A DNA stretch of 64,000 bases from Desulfatiglans anilini DSM 4660 (GCF_000422285.1 NZ_AULM01000021.1:1-64000), one strand, 5' to 3'. Shown: positions 27,393 to 37,217, numbered from the stretch's first letter. Notes: generated from the letters alone by a model not told the origin. A program made the numbers and translations.

Positions 27393-28496
27393 ATGAAGCT
27401 TTTACTTGCATCCCGCGGGGATTTCGACAACCCCAAGATTTGGTCTGGTACCCAATATAATTTAAAAAGGGCTTTTCAGGCCGAGGGAGGTGTCCAGACC
27501 CTCAACTGGCAACTGAATCGTCAATTGCTGCGGGCATACCATGCGGGCTTTCTCAGGTTTTTCTTTGGATGGGGCACATCCCGTGACCCGCTACTCCAAC
27601 GCTTTGCTGAAAAAAAAATAAAGCGTCTTCTGATTCGAAACGACAAACCGCCTGATTTTCTGCTGTTCATTTCAGACTACTACATTCCTGACAGGCTTAG
27701 GGGCTATACGAAATATGCCGCCTATTTCGATTCGTTCCTGAAGGAACAATTCAAATATATGGATGATGCCCGTTGGGGAAAAGATTGGTTTTTTCGCGGC
27801 TATGAGAAATCGAATCAGGCGCAGCTTGAAAGAATGACCCTGATCTTCACCCAGAATGAATGGACACGCCAATGCATTATCAGTGAATATGGAATTCCCG
27901 GCGCTCGGATTCACAATGTGGGGTTCGGCATCAACGTTACGCCGTTTGATGGCGAAAAAGATTATGATAAGGAGCTTCTTTTGATCGTGCAGCGCAAGGG
28001 AACGGAAAAATACAAGGGTCTGCTGCTTCTGCTTGACGCGTTCAAAATCTTGAAAAGGCGACAAACGAAGGTCCGCCTGGCGGTGGTTGGCACCCAACTG
28101 CCAGACAAGCTCGACGGCGTTGAATATTTCTATAATTTCCCACGCTCCAAAACCGTGGAGCTATTCAGAGCCTCCACTTTGTATGTCATGCCAGCCCTTC
28201 ATGAACCGAATGGCATTACCTACCTGGAAGCCCTGGCCAACAAGACGCCCATTGTCGGGCTAAACCGGTTTGCGGTGCCGGAGTTTTCTGGCAATGGGAA
28301 ATGGGGGTTCATGGCAGACGATGGCGCTCCGGAGGAACTCGCCGATGTCATCTACAAGGCGCTGAGCGATAAAAACCGTCTGCAGGAGATGGGCTTGAAA
28401 GGACAGCAATTTGTCTTGAGCCGGTACCGCTGGGACCTGGTTGTCAATCAGATGTTGAAAGAGATGCAAAAAGTGGCATGTCATTCGGAAGCTTGA
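27393..28496 (+). CDS. GT4-type glycosyltransferase, paralogue A
   Basis: A 367-residue GT-B enzyme starting MKLLLASRGDFDNPKIWSG. The C-terminal donor-binding half shows RKGTEKYKGLLLLLDAF and the ALHEPNGITYLEALANKTP motif, equivalent to the EX7E signature. It is strongly similar to the gene at 31816 over its full length (shared NEWTRQC, HNVGFG, KGTEKYKGLLLLL, YVMPALHEPNGITYLEALAN), so these are paralogues bracketing four overlapping genes. This copy is GC-richer than the other. Confidence 0.87.
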   Translation: MKLLLASRGDFDNPKIWSGTQYNLKRAFQAEGGVQTLNWQLNRQLLRAYHAGFLRFFFGWGTSRDPLLQRFAEKKIKRLLIRNDKPPDFLLFISDYYIPDRLRGYTKYAAYFDSFLKEQFKYMDDARWGKDWFFRGYEKSNQAQLERMTLIFTQNEWTRQCIISEYGIPGARIHNVGFGINVTPFDGEKDYDKELLLIVQRKGTEKYKGLLLLLDAFKILKRRQTKVRLAVVGTQLPDKLDGVEYFYNFPRSKTVELFRASTLYVMPALHEPNGITYLEALANKTPIVGLNRFAVPEFSGNGKWGFMADDGAPEELADVIYKALSDKNRLQEMGLKGQQFVLSRYRWDLVVNQMLKEMQKVACHSEA

Positions 28497-28668: not shown

Positions 28669-29415
28669 ATGAGACCCCTCCACATTATCATGCCCATGGC
28701 CGGCGAAGGCTCCCGGTTTGTTCAACAGGGATTCACAACGCCCAAGCCGATGATTGCGTGCAAAGGCAGAAGTCTTTTTGAACGGGCGTTGCTTAGCCTC
28801 GAAGGAATCCCCTGCGGGAAAAGGCACTGTTTTATTGTCCGCCAGGAGCATATCGACCTATATGCCATCGATGCTAGAATCAAAAGCGCTTTGCCGGAGG
28901 CATCAATTTTCGCCGTTTCGAAAACCACCCGTGGCGCGGTCGAGACATGTCTTGTGGCACGCCCTGCAATCCATCCGGATGAGGGCCTCGTGGTCATGGA
29001 CTGCGATCTGGAATTTTACAGCCGGGAGTATGCTGACCACATCACCGGCATTTTGGAGCAGCCTGCGTCCCAAGTCAGCGGAGGGGCACTGGTTTCTTTC
29101 GATTCAGACAATCCACGTTACAGTTATGCTCTGGCTGACGAACATGGCCGTGTGATCCGCACCGCTGAAAAACAGGTGATATCGCGCCATGCCCTGGCCG
29201 GGGCCTATTTCTTCAGTAAGGCAGCATCCTTTATCAGCGCGGCAGAACGGCTGCTGCAGGATGGCCTGGGCGGGTGCGCGGAATTTTACGTTTCCCTACT
29301 GTATAACTATCTCATTCATGACGGTGAATATGTCTTTCTGGCTAAAACGGAGAAGTATTATTCCTACGGCACACCCGAGGAACTGAGCCTGCAGAATAAT
29401 GGCAGTAGAGATTAA
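28669..29415 (+). CDS. Nucleotidyltransferase (LicC-like), first of the four-gene cassette
   Basis: Sugar- or alcohol-phosphate nucleotidyltransferase. The signature MPMAGEGSRFVQQGFTTPKP holds the dinucleotide-binding GxGxR and the following Lys; VVMDCDLEFYSREY carries the metal-binding Asp. The ATG at 28669 begins this motif; the frame opens 90 bases earlier in non-coding-looking sequence. At 248 aa it is shorter than hexose-1-P thymidylyltransferases and closer in size to LicC-type cytidylyltransferases. It overlaps the HAD gene by 17 bp. The substrate is probably a phosphorylated small alcohol, sugar or polyol made by the linked kinase; this is inference. Confidence 0.75.
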   Translation: MRPLHIIMPMAGEGSRFVQQGFTTPKPMIACKGRSLFERALLSLEGIPCGKRHCFIVRQEHIDLYAIDARIKSALPEASIFAVSKTTRGAVETCLVARPAIHPDEGLVVMDCDLEFYSREYADHITGILEQPASQVSGGALVSFDSDNPRYSYALADEHGRVIRTAEKQVISRHALAGAYFFSKAASFISAAERLLQDGLGGCAEFYVSLLYNYLIHDGEYVFLAKTEKYYSYGTPEELSLQNNGSRD

Positions 29416-29974
29416 GCTGATCATTTCCGATTTCGACGGCACCTTGATGGACACCCGCGAAGCCAATTTTTTGGCATACCGCGATGCGCTGAGGGCTGTT
29501 GGGCAGGATCTTTACCCGGAAAAATACGACGAATGTTTCGGGGTCCGGTTCGAGGAATTTATGCTGCGGCTGGGCATTGTAAACCCGGATCTCAGAAAAA
29601 CCATTCAGGCTGGTAAGGCAAAAGCCTATCCTGCCTATTTCCCCAGGATCAAAATCAATCGGGTTCTGGCCGATTTCATCGCGGGATTCAGACGCAGCGG
29701 CGGGCACACGGCTGTCGCTTCCACAGCCAGGCGCCAGAACTTGGTCAACCTGCTGGAATTCGCGAATCTCAGTGATTTATTTGAAATCATCGTCAGCGGC
29801 GAGGAAGTCGCGAGACCAAAGCCCGATCCCGAATGTTACCGGATCGCCATGGCTCGTTTGAGCGTTCGACCTGAAGAATGCCTGATCTTCGAGGACACGG
29901 ATATCGGTGTGCAGGCTGCGGCCGCCTCCGGCGCGAGCTACATGGTCATCAATGGGTGTTTCTATGGAAATTGA
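29399..29974 (+). CDS. HAD-superfamily phosphatase/phosphomutase
   Basis: A 191-residue HAD enzyme: DFDGTLMDT (motif I, nucleophile Asp and acid/base Asp), VASTARRQN (motif II), KPDPECY (motif III lysine) and FEDTDIGVQAA (motif IV). The small alpha-helical cap and motif layout resemble beta-phosphoglucomutase or phosphoglycolate-type phosphatases. Overlaps both neighbours (17 bp upstream, 11 bp downstream), so it is co-translated with them. It may dephosphorylate or isomerise the metabolite handled by the linked kinase and nucleotidyltransferases. Confidence 0.82.
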   Translation: MAVEIKLIISDFDGTLMDTREANFLAYRDALRAVGQDLYPEKYDECFGVRFEEFMLRLGIVNPDLRKTIQAGKAKAYPAYFPRIKINRVLADFIAGFRRSGGHTAVASTARRQNLVNLLEFANLSDLFEIIVSGEEVARPKPDPECYRIAMARLSVRPEECLIFEDTDIGVQAAAASGASYMVINGCFYGN

Positions 29975-30833
29975 AATTGCCGGCCATTCCGGGTGCTCGA
30001 TCGAGGTTGTCAACGAGAACAACCGCCTGTTCGTTTACAAAAGCACCCGTGATCCCTCCTATGCCGGCCGGCTGAGACAGCAGGCGCTCAAACAGCGCGG
30101 TTTTGAGGCACAAGCACCCGCCAGCATCAAGACGCCCCGTATCCTTGCCATCGAAGCTGGAGAAAACGCCTGCCGGATCAAAATGGAATATGTTTATTCC
30201 CTTAATTTTATTACCTTCTTGGAAAACGCCGGATATGAACAGATCAATCATTTCCTCGGGAACATCATTGCTTTTGTGGAATCGGAAATCGCGCTGTGTG
30301 AATTGAAAACGATTGAAGAGCGCATTTTTACGGAAAAATACTGGTCAGTGAGACGTAACATCCAAACCAGTGCGCACACCGGGGCCGATGGTGAAATCAA
30401 GGCGCTCCTGCCCGAGTTGGATAGAATTTTCGGGGGAAAATTGGCTGTAAGCATCCCCGTAGGCGTGTGCCACGGCGACCTCACGCTCTCCAACATTCTT
30501 TTCAATGGAGGCCGGTGTTATCTGATCGATTTCCTGGATTCGTTCATTGAAACACCCTTGATGGATATTGTTAAATTGAGGCAGGATACTGCGTTTAATT
30601 GGTCAGGGCTGATGTATCAGGGGACTTATGACCACATACGGCATCAGATTGCATTACGCCTTATGGATAAGAGGATCCATGACTTTTTTTCAAAATATCA
30701 ATGGTATCATGAGGCCTATCCTGTCTTCCAATTGATGAATTTTCTCCGGATTCTCCAATACGCCCATGACCCTGTGGTCATTCGCTTTCTAAAAACGTCC
30801 ATTGCCGATCTGTTAAAAAGATATGCCGTTTAA
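29964..30833 (+). CDS. Aminoglycoside/choline-kinase-like phosphotransferase
   Basis: A 289-residue APH/LicA-type kinase. VCHGDLTLSNILF is the catalytic loop (the Brenner-type HGD..xxN motif) and YLIDFLDSF supplies the metal-binding Asp. Proteins of this group phosphorylate small alcohols, amino-alcohols or sugars. I start at the ATG at 29964, which overlaps the HAD stop; the GTG/ATG codons upstream lie inside the HAD gene. In a set with two nucleotidyltransferases it plausibly makes the phosphorylated precursor that is then NTP-activated, as LicA and LicC do for choline. Confidence 0.78.
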   Translation: MEIEIAGHSGCSIEVVNENNRLFVYKSTRDPSYAGRLRQQALKQRGFEAQAPASIKTPRILAIEAGENACRIKMEYVYSLNFITFLENAGYEQINHFLGNIIAFVESEIALCELKTIEERIFTEKYWSVRRNIQTSAHTGADGEIKALLPELDRIFGGKLAVSIPVGVCHGDLTLSNILFNGGRCYLIDFLDSFIETPLMDIVKLRQDTAFNWSGLMYQGTYDHIRHQIALRLMDKRIHDFFSKYQWYHEAYPVFQLMNFLRILQYAHDPVVIRFLKTSIADLLKRYAV

Positions 30834-31791
30834 CCTGATCGTTCCCATCGCGGCTGACAAACCCGAGTGGGTGGATACCGCTCCCTACATGTTCGACCTT
30901 CATCCACTGGGTAACCTGATGGTGTTTGAAAGCATCCGCGGTCTCATGCTGGAGGAGTTCGATCGGATATACATTACCATTCTCAGAAAACATGACGAAC
31001 GATTTCACTTGAAACCACTCCTGGAAAGGCAGTTCGAGGTGGCAGGGATGTTCGAAAAGCTGCGTGTTGTTGTATTGGAGAATCCAACGCGCAATCAGCC
31101 CGAAACCATAGCTAAAACCATTGAACATGAAAAAATCAAAGGTCCTATATTGATCAAAGATTCAGACAATTATTTTGAATGCTCTCTGGAACCTACCAAC
31201 AACATCGCCATTTTCCCACTTGATGCGCTTGAAAAGGTTAATCCATCTGATAAGAGTTATGTTGCCATTGATGATGGATTTTATATCACTAATATCATCG
31301 AAAAAAAAATTATTAGTCGTTATTTCTGTGCTGGTGGTTATTCCTTTGAAAGCGCTGCGATTTATATGAAATTCTATCGGAGATTCGCGCACTGCGATAT
31401 TCTGTACCTGTCCCATATAATCTATGGGATGTTGATGGATCAGTTATCCTTTCGCCCGTGCCAAGTCAGCAATTATCTTGACTGGGGCACTCAGCAAGAG
31501 TGGCGCGAGTACTGCGCTAGTTATAAGACCATATTTTTGGCATTTGAAATGCTGCAAACAAACAAAAAAGAAGATTTTGTCCGAAAAATAAGGCGTCTTT
31601 ACGAATCTGGAACGGCCAGACTGATAATAATAGCCGGAAACAACCGCTTGATGCAAAGCGATTATCAGGTTTGTTTAGCAGAAGCAGGAATTAAATATCA
31701 TGAAATCATTACAGGCGTTTTCCCATATAATATGCATATAATTTCTGAAGAAAATCAATTAAACGAGTTAAAGCAAAAAATCATTGATTAA
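30823..31791 (+). CDS. Nucleotidyltransferase-like protein, last of the four-gene cassette
   Basis: Starts MPFNLIVPIAADKPEWVDT and continues with HPLGNLMVFESIRGL and KGPILIKDSDNYFEC, an arrangement resembling the Rossmann-like nucleotidyltransferase fold but with the GxGxR loop replaced by AADKPEW, so the usual nucleotide loop is missing or strongly altered. Residues 235-322 form an additional small alpha/beta region. It overlaps the kinase gene by 11 bp. It may be a partner, a divergent transferase or a non-catalytic subunit of the set. AT content rises steadily along the gene. Confidence 0.6.
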   Translation: MPFNLIVPIAADKPEWVDTAPYMFDLHPLGNLMVFESIRGLMLEEFDRIYITILRKHDERFHLKPLLERQFEVAGMFEKLRVVVLENPTRNQPETIAKTIEHEKIKGPILIKDSDNYFECSLEPTNNIAIFPLDALEKVNPSDKSYVAIDDGFYITNIIEKKIISRYFCAGGYSFESAAIYMKFYRRFAHCDILYLSHIIYGMLMDQLSFRPCQVSNYLDWGTQQEWREYCASYKTIFLAFEMLQTNKKEDFVRKIRRLYESGTARLIIIAGNNRLMQSDYQVCLAEAGIKYHEIITGVFPYNMHIISEENQLNELKQKIID

Positions 31792-31815
31792 ATTAATATG
31801 TAATAAAGGTTGTAT

Positions 31816-32919
31816 ATGAAAATACTGCTTGCAAGTAGAGGTGATATCACAAATCCATTAAACTGGTCTGGCACTCCCTACAACCTAAAAAATCATTTTG
31901 CCAATATACCAGGACTCCATATCGATTGCCTCAACTGGCAAACATACCGCATGATTTTACGAATTTACCACGTAATATTTAGTAAACTCATATTCATATA
32001 CGGTTCTGCGAAAGACCCCTTTTTGAAGCCGTTTTGTGCAAGGACAATAAAAAGCAGAATCTTGCAACTCAAATGTAAACCAGATTTCGTAATGTTTATT
32101 TCCGATTATATAATACCTAGTTCTATAGCATATAAAACCAAATTTGCCGCCTATGTTGATTCATTTCATGAAGTTGAAATGCAGCATTATGCTGGTAACC
32201 GCCGAGGTATAGGTATTTGGAAGCGGCATTATGGCTTAAACAATATGGAATCCCTTCAACGCATGGCTTTAATTTTCACGCAGAACGAGTGGACACGGCA
32301 GTGTATGATGAGCGCCTATGGAATAGATGAAAATAAAATCCATAATGTTGGTTTTGGTGTCAACGTAAATCCGTTTCTTGAAGAGAAAAACTATCAAAAC
32401 AACTTGTTATTGATTGTTCTACGTAAAGGAACAGAAAAATACAAAGGGCTTCTACTGCTATTAAAAGCTTTTCGTTTGCTAAAGAAATTGCGCCCAGATT
32501 TGCACCTTGCAGTCGTGGGAACAGAATTGGATGATAGAATTGATGGTGTGACTTACTACTTCAATCAACCGCGTTCTGTTACATTAGATCTGTTTCGTAA
32601 GGCAACGCTTTATGTCATGCCTGCTCTGCATGAGCCAAATGGCATTACGTATTTGGAAGCTCTTGCTAACAAGACGCCCATAGTTGGCCTCAAACGTTTT
32701 GCTCTTCCTGAATTCACTAATAATGGCGAATGGGGATTCATGGTTGAGCATGAGGATGCCAACCAATTAGCTAACGTGTTAAATTACGCTCTTGATAACA
32801 AAGAGCTGCTGCGGATAATGGGGCTGAAAGGGCAAGATTTTGTTTTGAAAAGATATAGTTGGCATAAAGTCGTTTGTGATATGGCTGCAATCATGCGGAA
32901 TTATCTTTTACAAAAATAG
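31816..32919 (+). CDS. GT4-type glycosyltransferase, paralogue B
   Basis: Paralogue of the gene at 27393: MKILLASRGDITNPLNWSG, NEWTRQCMMSAYG, RKGTEKYKGLLLLLKAF, ALHEPNGITYLEALANKTP. AAAGG lies seven bases before the ATG at 31816. It is clearly AT-richer than paralogue A although the proteins are close, so the two may have been acquired from different sources rather than duplicated in place. Both could transfer the same unusual activated precursor in different linkages. Confidence 0.86.
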   Translation: MKILLASRGDITNPLNWSGTPYNLKNHFANIPGLHIDCLNWQTYRMILRIYHVIFSKLIFIYGSAKDPFLKPFCARTIKSRILQLKCKPDFVMFISDYIIPSSIAYKTKFAAYVDSFHEVEMQHYAGNRRGIGIWKRHYGLNNMESLQRMALIFTQNEWTRQCMMSAYGIDENKIHNVGFGVNVNPFLEEKNYQNNLLLIVLRKGTEKYKGLLLLLKAFRLLKKLRPDLHLAVVGTELDDRIDGVTYYFNQPRSVTLDLFRKATLYVMPALHEPNGITYLEALANKTPIVGLKRFALPEFTNNGEWGFMVEHEDANQLANVLNYALDNKELLRIMGLKGQDFVLKRYSWHKVVCDMAAIMRNYLLQK

Positions 32920-35900: not shown

Positions 35901-37217
35901 ATGAGATCACTATTACAATTGATTTTTCCCCGATATTGGCCGCTTGAAGAAGAGTTCAAAAAGCGCGAATCATTTATGAGTTTATCCAAGACCGATCGAG
36001 ATTATATAAGGTTACGAAAACTTAACGAGCGGTGGCTAAAAGCTCAGAATAACTCAAAGTATTATCAACGTATAAAAAAGAAGCATAATTTACCTGAAAC
36101 ATTCTCTTCTATAGAAGAATATATTTCATTGATGCCAATAACGACCAAAAATGCGGTTTCAAGACATCCAAAACATTTTTTGTTGAATGGGCACGCACGA
36201 GGGAAATGGATGTCGACCGGGGGATCCACTGGCATTCCAACCAGGGTATATTGGAAACTCAAAGGACATCTGGAAAGCTTGAGGGATCAGTATTGGGCGC
36301 GCATGTGGTGGGGAGTTGATCCTTTCGATAAGCAGGCGATGATTTGGGGGCATTCCCATACATTTGGCCATGGAATGATAGGAACTTATCATAGGCTTAT
36401 GGTCCCAATTACCGATAAAGCGCGACGGAGGATGAGACTAAGCGCATACCAAATAGACGAATCATCGTTGCGAAGATACTATGATAAGATTGACGCGTTT
36501 CAACCAGCATCTTTATATGCGTATTCATCTGCAGCATTCCTGCTTGCGATGGCCAACTCAGATCGCCCCCCCTTGGGAAAGACCCTTAAAGCGGCGTTTT
36601 TAGCAGCTGAGCCCATATTGCCACAACATAGAAAAATAATTGACCAAATTTTAAGATGTCCGGCAGTGGGCGAATATGGAAGTATTGAATGTGGAATGAT
36701 TGCGTATGAACATCCTTCGGGAGGTTATCATATTTTCGAGAATTCCGTTTTAGTAGACACTTCCAAGAATCCCTCAGGTGGATATGACTTGATCGTTACG
36801 CAACTAAGGGATAGCCATTTTCCTCTATTTCGATATCAAATTGGAGATATGACGGCTAAAGAAATAGAGCGCGGGAATAATGGTCGCGAAATTCTTGGAG
36901 AAATAAAAGGTCGGACCCACGATTTTTTGCGAACACCTTCTGGAAGATTCTGCCACGGAGAAATGATTACACACTGCATAGAACAACTAAGCGATATATT
37001 GATTTTTAATGTTCATCAGAGGCGCGATTTCCGAATAATCATAACAATCACAACAAATGACAGCAAACCATTATCATTGAAAAAGGAAAATTGGTTAAAA
37101 ACGTCTATCCGTACCGCATTGTGTGAATCAATTTCTATCGATTTAGACTACAAACCAGAATTGAGCCGATCTATAGCGGGCAAGCATAGGTGGATAACGA
37201 CCGAGTTCGAGCAATGA
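35901..37217 (+). CDS. PaaK/CapK-like adenylate-forming enzyme
   Basis: A 438-residue member of the phenylacetate-CoA ligase-like group. STGGSTGIPTRVYW is the nucleotide-binding P-loop; GEYGSIECGMIAYEH and FPLFRYQIGDM are later adenylation motifs. CapK-type relatives are found in capsule and O-antigen clusters, and probably activate an acid (amino acid, fatty acid or uronic acid) that is then joined to sugar. No obvious acceptor transferase is adjacent, though an acyltransferase-3 lies at 43424. The Lys expected near the C-terminus cannot be placed with certainty. Confidence 0.8.
   Translation: MRSLLQLIFPRYWPLEEEFKKRESFMSLSKTDRDYIRLRKLNERWLKAQNNSKYYQRIKKKHNLPETFSSIEEYISLMPITTKNAVSRHPKHFLLNGHARGKWMSTGGSTGIPTRVYWKLKGHLESLRDQYWARMWWGVDPFDKQAMIWGHSHTFGHGMIGTYHRLMVPITDKARRRMRLSAYQIDESSLRRYYDKIDAFQPASLYAYSSAAFLLAMANSDRPPLGKTLKAAFLAAEPILPQHRKIIDQILRCPAVGEYGSIECGMIAYEHPSGGYHIFENSVLVDTSKNPSGGYDLIVTQLRDSHFPLFRYQIGDMTAKEIERGNNGREILGEIKGRTHDFLRTPSGRFCHGEMITHCIEQLSDILIFNVHQRRDFRIIITITTNDSKPLSLKKENWLKTSIRTALCESISIDLDYKPELSRSIAGKHRWITTEFEQ

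Follow-up and report, generated by a model that had tools for sequence, protein, structure and literature searches.

The LicA/LicC route has, to our knowledge, no phosphatase. HddA, the kinase of the GDP-heptose route, is a GHMP kinase, and noncatalytic nucleotidyltransferase paralogs stand beside active ones in the plant ADP-glucose pyrophosphorylase, as its large subunit, and in bacteria, as GlgD. In the GDP-heptose route, a kinase, a phosphatase, and a nucleotidyltransferase (HddA, GmhB, and HddC) are combined such that the phosphate is moved before activation (PMC7705670). Among noncatalytic paralogs, GMPPA binds GDP-mannose and regulates GMPPB (PMC11228364).

We analyzed a stretch of 64,000 nucleotides from Desulfatiglans anilini DSM 4660 (NZ_AULM01000021.1:1-64000, hereafter the window), in which a sequence-only reading had described four overlapping genes at 28669-31791. 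All four open reading frames were recovered together with their overlaps (Table 1), and nothing was found in the literature on this four-gene set. The set sits in a low-GC polysaccharide region (~41-52% GC versus mostly 55-65% across the window) that also contains glycosyltransferases and an FkbM methyltransferase, with one of two GT4 glycosyltransferases, 56% identical to each other, on either side of it. The GC content falls along the locus from 53% in N1 and HAD to 41% in N2 and 38% in the second glycosyltransferase, and this mosaic and the GT4 pair suggest that the locus was assembled by recombination. The polysaccharide region additionally encodes a 510-residue multipass membrane protein, flippase-like when read by eye, and an AMP-dependent CoA ligase–like (PaaK-like) protein (window positions 35901-37217). 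Our preferred reading, to which we give a probability of roughly 60%, is that the four genes together serve the synthesis of one activated sugar or polyol, with the catalytically degenerate N2 (also written N2*) kept as a noncatalytic partner.

Table 1. Positions of the four-gene set, the degenerate regions of N2, and the flanking glycosyltransferase genes in the window
Feature	Position	Strand	Description
N1	28669..29415	+	Predicted stand-alone sugar-phosphate nucleotidyltransferase; loop intact
HAD	29399..29974	+	Predicted C1-capped, beta-PGM–like phosphatase; 17 bp shared with N1
KIN	29964..30833	+	Predicted APH-fold small-molecule kinase; 11 bp shared with HAD
N2 (N2*)	30823..31791	+	Catalytically degenerate member of the NTP-HAD bifunctional family; 11 bp shared with KIN
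N2 degenerate NTP-binding loop	30847..30897	+	Residues 9-25, IAADKPEWVDTAPYMFD
N2 degenerate HAD domain	31519..31788	+	Residues 233-322; DxDG to AFEM, TTSR to IAGN, NDFA to EENQ
First flanking GT4 glycosyltransferase	27393..28496	+	Context
Second flanking GT4 glycosyltransferase	31810..32919	+	Context

The first three proteins were assigned on the basis of family matches and motifs. N1 matched the NTP_transferase family (Pfam PF00483) at 22.9 bits, over the family cutoff, and its nearest solved structure in a sequence search was PDB 4evw (E 7e-15). Its motifs (loop MAGEGSRF...TPKP, MDCDLE, AEK, and YGTP) provide the GxGSRF...PKP loop, the acidic metal residue, and the EK pair of a predicted sugar-phosphate nucleotidyltransferase. 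The HAD protein is HAD_2/beta-PGM–like (E 1e-26), capped, and has every motif intact. KIN matched APH (PF01636, E 6e-10) and, weakly, TCAD9, and both its catalytic loop HGDLTLSN and its metal site IDFLD are intact. The AF2 model of KIN (pLDDT 95) gave Z scores of 17-18 to aminoglycoside (APH) and fructosamine kinases, with 18.4 to APH(2'')-IIIa, and a Pfam search returned for KIN no GHMP family match and no choline-kinase match at E 0.01. These families fit the original proposal of a single route in which a kinase, a phosphatase, and a nucleotidyltransferase yield an NDP-activated sugar or polyol. The accompanying parallel with LicA/LicC is weakened and is not the closest one, as KIN lies outside the choline-kinase Pfam family and a phosphatase is integral to the set. 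A route of the LicA/LicC kind, activating an alcohol of the phosphocholine type with CTP, would explain why a kinase of the APH/choline-kinase superfamily is paired with a nucleotidyltransferase. However, besides the missing choline-kinase match, phosphatase activity accompanies the kinase, fused or separate, in nearly every relative and has no place in such a route, which we regard as the least probable of the alternatives weighed here.

Searches with N2 gave no sequence matches in Pfam, NCBIfam, or PDB, and no curated family covering it was found. Its AF2 model (pLDDT 92.7) has the sugar-nucleotidyltransferase fold, with 4evw as the best match (Z 25.0 over 218 residues). Seven relatives of ~350 residues each, identified by scanning viral sequences with the window N2, carry N-terminal nucleotidyltransferase motifs (AGxSSRFPxxxPKW, KDSDNYF, EKK, and DWGT) followed by C-terminal HAD motifs (DxDG, TTSR, and ND). 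A further 38 bacterial loci from many phyla came from a genome scan, and a profile scan for the family matched 284 viral stretches, 80 of which were kept. The window N2 is 28-40% identical to its relatives, in most cases over 299-318 residues spanning the nucleotidyltransferase and HAD domains, and KIN was located near an N2-family gene in 121 of 125 loci, usually immediately upstream. N2 descends from an uncharacterized, putatively bifunctional family uniting a nucleotidyltransferase with a HAD phosphatase. Close relatives of the window N2 were sought in its own family, order, and class without any being found: within the class, N2 was present in none of 85 genomes apart from its own, and a plasmid search gave no N2-family match with the window and L035 proteins and weak partial matches only with the L002 protein. 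Among the bacterial loci, KIN-N2 followed by genes that we take to be WavE-like (LPS core) glycosyltransferase genes occurs in Marinobacter (L046:8137-11105) and Ferrimonas (L041:8138-12151), in both cases within or near heptose genes. The Marinobacter locus is nearly identical over several genes to a contig filed under a Rhodopirellula MAG (L016), which possibly reflects a binning error or a recent transfer.

The second transferase had been called loop-altered, a description that was right but understated. In the alignment with its relatives, the NTP loop AGxSSRFPxxxPKW is replaced by AADKPEWVDTAPYM, which departs from the G-x-S-x-R-F-P-x-x-x-P-K pattern of the N2 proteins of the KIN-N2 module and lacks the loop's Arg and Lys. 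The HAD active site is gone as well, a loss that the earlier description did not include, with AFEM, IAGN, and EENQ in the places of DxDG, T/S, and ND, and the C-terminal tail of the relatives is also lost. The altered loop stands, and the protein itself is better described as the remnant of a bifunctional nucleotidyltransferase-HAD protein, apparently dead at both sites. We scored the positions that are at least 85% conserved across the family. In the window N2, the conserved residue is retained at 25 of 26 such positions of the nucleotidyltransferase core, at 5 of 12 in the loop region, and at 4 of 17 in the HAD domain; the motifs DSD (DxD-like), EKK, and DWG are kept. As judged from the alignment, the loss is focal, with both active sites gone and the core kept, and N2* retains the half-site that should hold the sugar-phosphate. 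Both activities predicted to be lost are present as the intact neighboring genes N1 and HAD, which appear to have taken them over. An assembly or frameshift artifact was considered and rejected, as other reading frames restore neither the loop nor the HAD motifs. A decaying gene with no present function would account for the two lost active sites, the lost tail, and the long branch of the window N2 (1.58 with all columns). Nevertheless, this branch measures only 0.64 without the loop and HAD columns, the focal loss spares the core, and the frame of 322 codons is uninterrupted and overlaps that of KIN. Selection also acts on the same dead-loop protein in two phages, as described below, and we consider decay very improbable.

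The gene-neighborhood survey bore out the proposed linkage, which is conserved, and orthologs of the complete set recur in two giant phages, G463 and G467. In their contigs of 376 and 236 kb, respectively, N1, HAD, KIN, and N2* follow the order of the window with other genes inserted between them (L251:1028-8251 and L315:3976-9499), and the proteins are 37-43% identical to those of the window across both phages (39-41% for G463). Scanning viral sequences with the window HAD alone gave no matches, and G467 was recovered with a two-row alignment. The phage N2* proteins comprise 234-242 residues, stop where the HAD domain would start, and carry the dead loop MINTSKKYENSVPIEF. Among ~115 nonredundant N2 proteins, a dead NTP loop is confined to the window, G463, and G467, a count that leaves out two flagged rows representing second domains of N1-N1 fusions and not N2. 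DCD-type N1 and HAD are present in all three dead-loop loci and in no locus with an intact-loop N2. The three sets group together in the KIN tree (SH-aLRT 85), and grouping the three N2 cores as a clade was not rejected in a tree test. The loop probably died once, long ago, and has stayed dead over ~60% divergence; the concurrence of the dead loop with N1 and HAD therefore represents one event and not many.

Comparison of G463 with G467 gave dN and dS values of 0.31 and 1.03 for N2*, 0.28 and 0.91 for KIN, and 0.29 and 0.82 for HAD. N2* is under purifying selection in the phages on this comparison, which argues against simple decay of N2. The same selection would be expected if N2 had acquired a new catalytic activity, such as glycosyl or phosphoryl transfer, through the kept DSD, EKK, and DWG motifs, and both the DxD-like motif retained in the window and the conserved core, with its acidic and Lys residues, are consistent with such a gain. 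However, DWGT is replaced by YEDFEIK in the phage N2* proteins, and KDADT occurs in one of them, so that the metal-site residues are not all kept; additionally, no neighboring gene hints at a new reaction, and we judge this explanation improbable. In G463, family matches identified thymidylate-kinase–like and thymidylate-synthase–like genes before N1 and a TAGT glycosyltransferase (PF20691, phrog_842) after N2*, and similar neighbors were recognized in G467 by sequence reading. TAGT acts on modified DNA bases in T-even phages (PMC13216743). These neighborhoods are likely DNA-hypermodification clusters with their own sugar supply, and the route may feed DNA hypermodification in the phages and a surface glycan in the window.

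The distribution of the phosphatase activity was examined across the 125 loci. Of these, 111 have an intact HAD domain in N2, and 109 of the 111 lack a separate HAD within 2.2 kb; in the two remaining loci, the separate HAD belongs to HAD-N1 pairs. Where the domain is dead (14 of 125 loci), a separate HAD is present in 12, the exceptions being L029, in which N2 occurs without KIN, and L045, a locus broken by transposases. The latter (L045:8144-10827, from a Selenomonadaceae MAG) contains a degenerate N2 without HAD, disrupted by the flanking transposase genes. The N2 tree indicates three separate losses of the HAD domain, in an alphaproteobacterial/myxococcal clade, in Firmicutes, and in the window, and a stand-alone HAD accompanies each loss. 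Three events do not suffice for statistical significance, but all are in the same direction, namely that the phosphatase activity belongs to the route. KIN, the phosphatase, and the nucleotidyltransferase travel together, as fused or as separate units.

In several phages (e.g., L002, L066, L092, and L202), HAD-N1 pairs of another N1 subtype adjoin a fully intact KIN-N2, and therefore HAD-N1 can also serve a separate product; as far as gene content indicates, the two modules can function alongside each other. This arrangement is relevant to the alternative that N1-HAD makes one activated sugar and KIN-N2 another, with the gene overlaps reflecting cotranscription and N2 remaining partly active. 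Each module is common alone, HAD being found beside an intact N1 in most N1 loci sampled, and phages such as L002 hold both with all sites intact. The window N2, however, lacks the NTP-loop Arg and Lys and all HAD motifs, which would leave the KIN product without a transferase of its own, and among N2 loci DCD-type N1 and HAD co-occur only with a dead-loop N2. We consider two separate routes unlikely.

Altered transferases were also observed in other arrangements. Within the window's phylum, three genomes (G247, G112, and G166; L241:4186-6657, L242:6217-7590, and L243:4845-7573) combine HAD and an intact N1 with a nearby N1-type protein whose loop is dead, in G112 as a HAD fusion; this is a parallel instance of a dead transferase next to a live one. 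In two other large phage contigs, an N1 that is 47-48% identical to that of the window directly follows a protein of 503-512 residues (L254:760-2298 and L255:4493-6004) belonging to phrog_24015, a PHROGs family of unknown function, and in one of the two a short HAD-like gene precedes this protein. We tentatively interpret the 503-512-residue protein as an N-terminal loop-altered nucleotidyltransferase joined to a C-terminal APH-type kinase; Pfam searches gave no nucleotidyltransferase match for these proteins and a weak kinase match in one only. Fused double N1-N1 nucleotidyltransferases of ~517 residues were seen in bacteria and in a phage (L244:121-1674 and L248:1447-3003).

Under the preferred single-route reading, KIN would phosphorylate an already phosphorylated precursor, most likely at the anomeric or another activating position, HAD would take off the original phosphate of the precursor, and N1 would link the phosphate that is left to a nucleotide; the resulting NDP- or CDP-activated compound would serve the glycosyltransferases of the locus as donor. 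The pairing of a kinase with a phosphatase makes sense for a precursor that arrives as a phosphate ester and then has its phosphate moved. In the relatives, the phosphatase and nucleotidyltransferase steps would reside in one bifunctional protein, N2. The window N2* is probably a binding protein for the sugar-phosphate or the product that supports or regulates KIN, N1, or both, in the manner of GMPPA with GMPPB; because the KIN and N2 genes are adjacent almost everywhere, KIN is an equally plausible partner of N2*. The sequences show the homologies, the retained and missing motifs, the linkage, and the coincidence of lost domain activities with stand-alone genes, and the order of the reactions, the substrate, the nucleotide, and the present role of N2 are all inferred.

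The analysis points to an uncharacterized route of sugar activation that is widespread among phages (one scan gave 284 viral stretches) and whose key enzyme has no curated family. The window would provide a natural example of a bifunctional enzyme retained as a dead protein, with intact stand-alone counterparts of both its active sites. The linkage to TAGT and thymidylate-synthase–like genes in the giant phages additionally predicts a sugar on phage DNA. A broader scenario, which we put forward as possible but tentative, is that one lineage of a widespread, unnamed nucleotide-sugar route outsourced both steps of the bifunctional enzyme to new genes and kept the dead partner, and that the set is exchanged between surface-glycan loci of bacteria and giant phages, providing the latter with an unusual sugar with which to hypermodify DNA bases.

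Several known systems can be compared with the set. A parallel with Campylobacter CDP-fructose was also considered and set aside, as the papers found assign no kinase and nucleotidyltransferase pair for fructose. LicA/LicC resembles the set in placing a kinase and a nucleotidyltransferase in a surface-glycan locus and differs in that a HAD phosphatase is integral to the window set. The HddA/GmhB/HddC system shares the kinase, phosphatase, and nucleotidyltransferase logic, a likeness of logic and not of orthology, and KIN, unlike HddA, has the APH fold and no GHMP match. A heptose locus would also be expected to encode a sedoheptulose-7-phosphate isomerase; SIS-isomerase–like genes occur in the relatives L014, L041, and L046, and none was seen beside the set among the window open reading frames scanned. 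The nearest solved structure to N1 in sequence and to N2 in fold, Vibrio cholerae 4evw (a putative nucleoside-diphosphate-sugar pyrophosphorylase from structural genomics), has a single domain, unlike the bifunctional N2 family. As with GMPPA and GMPPB, a noncatalytic nucleotidyltransferase paralog appears to stand beside an active one, the loop being intact in N1 and lost in N2 of the same operon; N2 differs from GMPPA in its descent from a bifunctional NTP-HAD protein and its linkage to a kinase, and its partnership with N1 is putative. Finally, the uncharacterized KIN-N2 module of phages and bacteria, described here from sequence, has homologous KIN and N2 proteins (~23-41% identity) in the same order and adjacency, and the window differs from it by the loss of both N2 active sites and the addition of a separate N1 and HAD to the operon.
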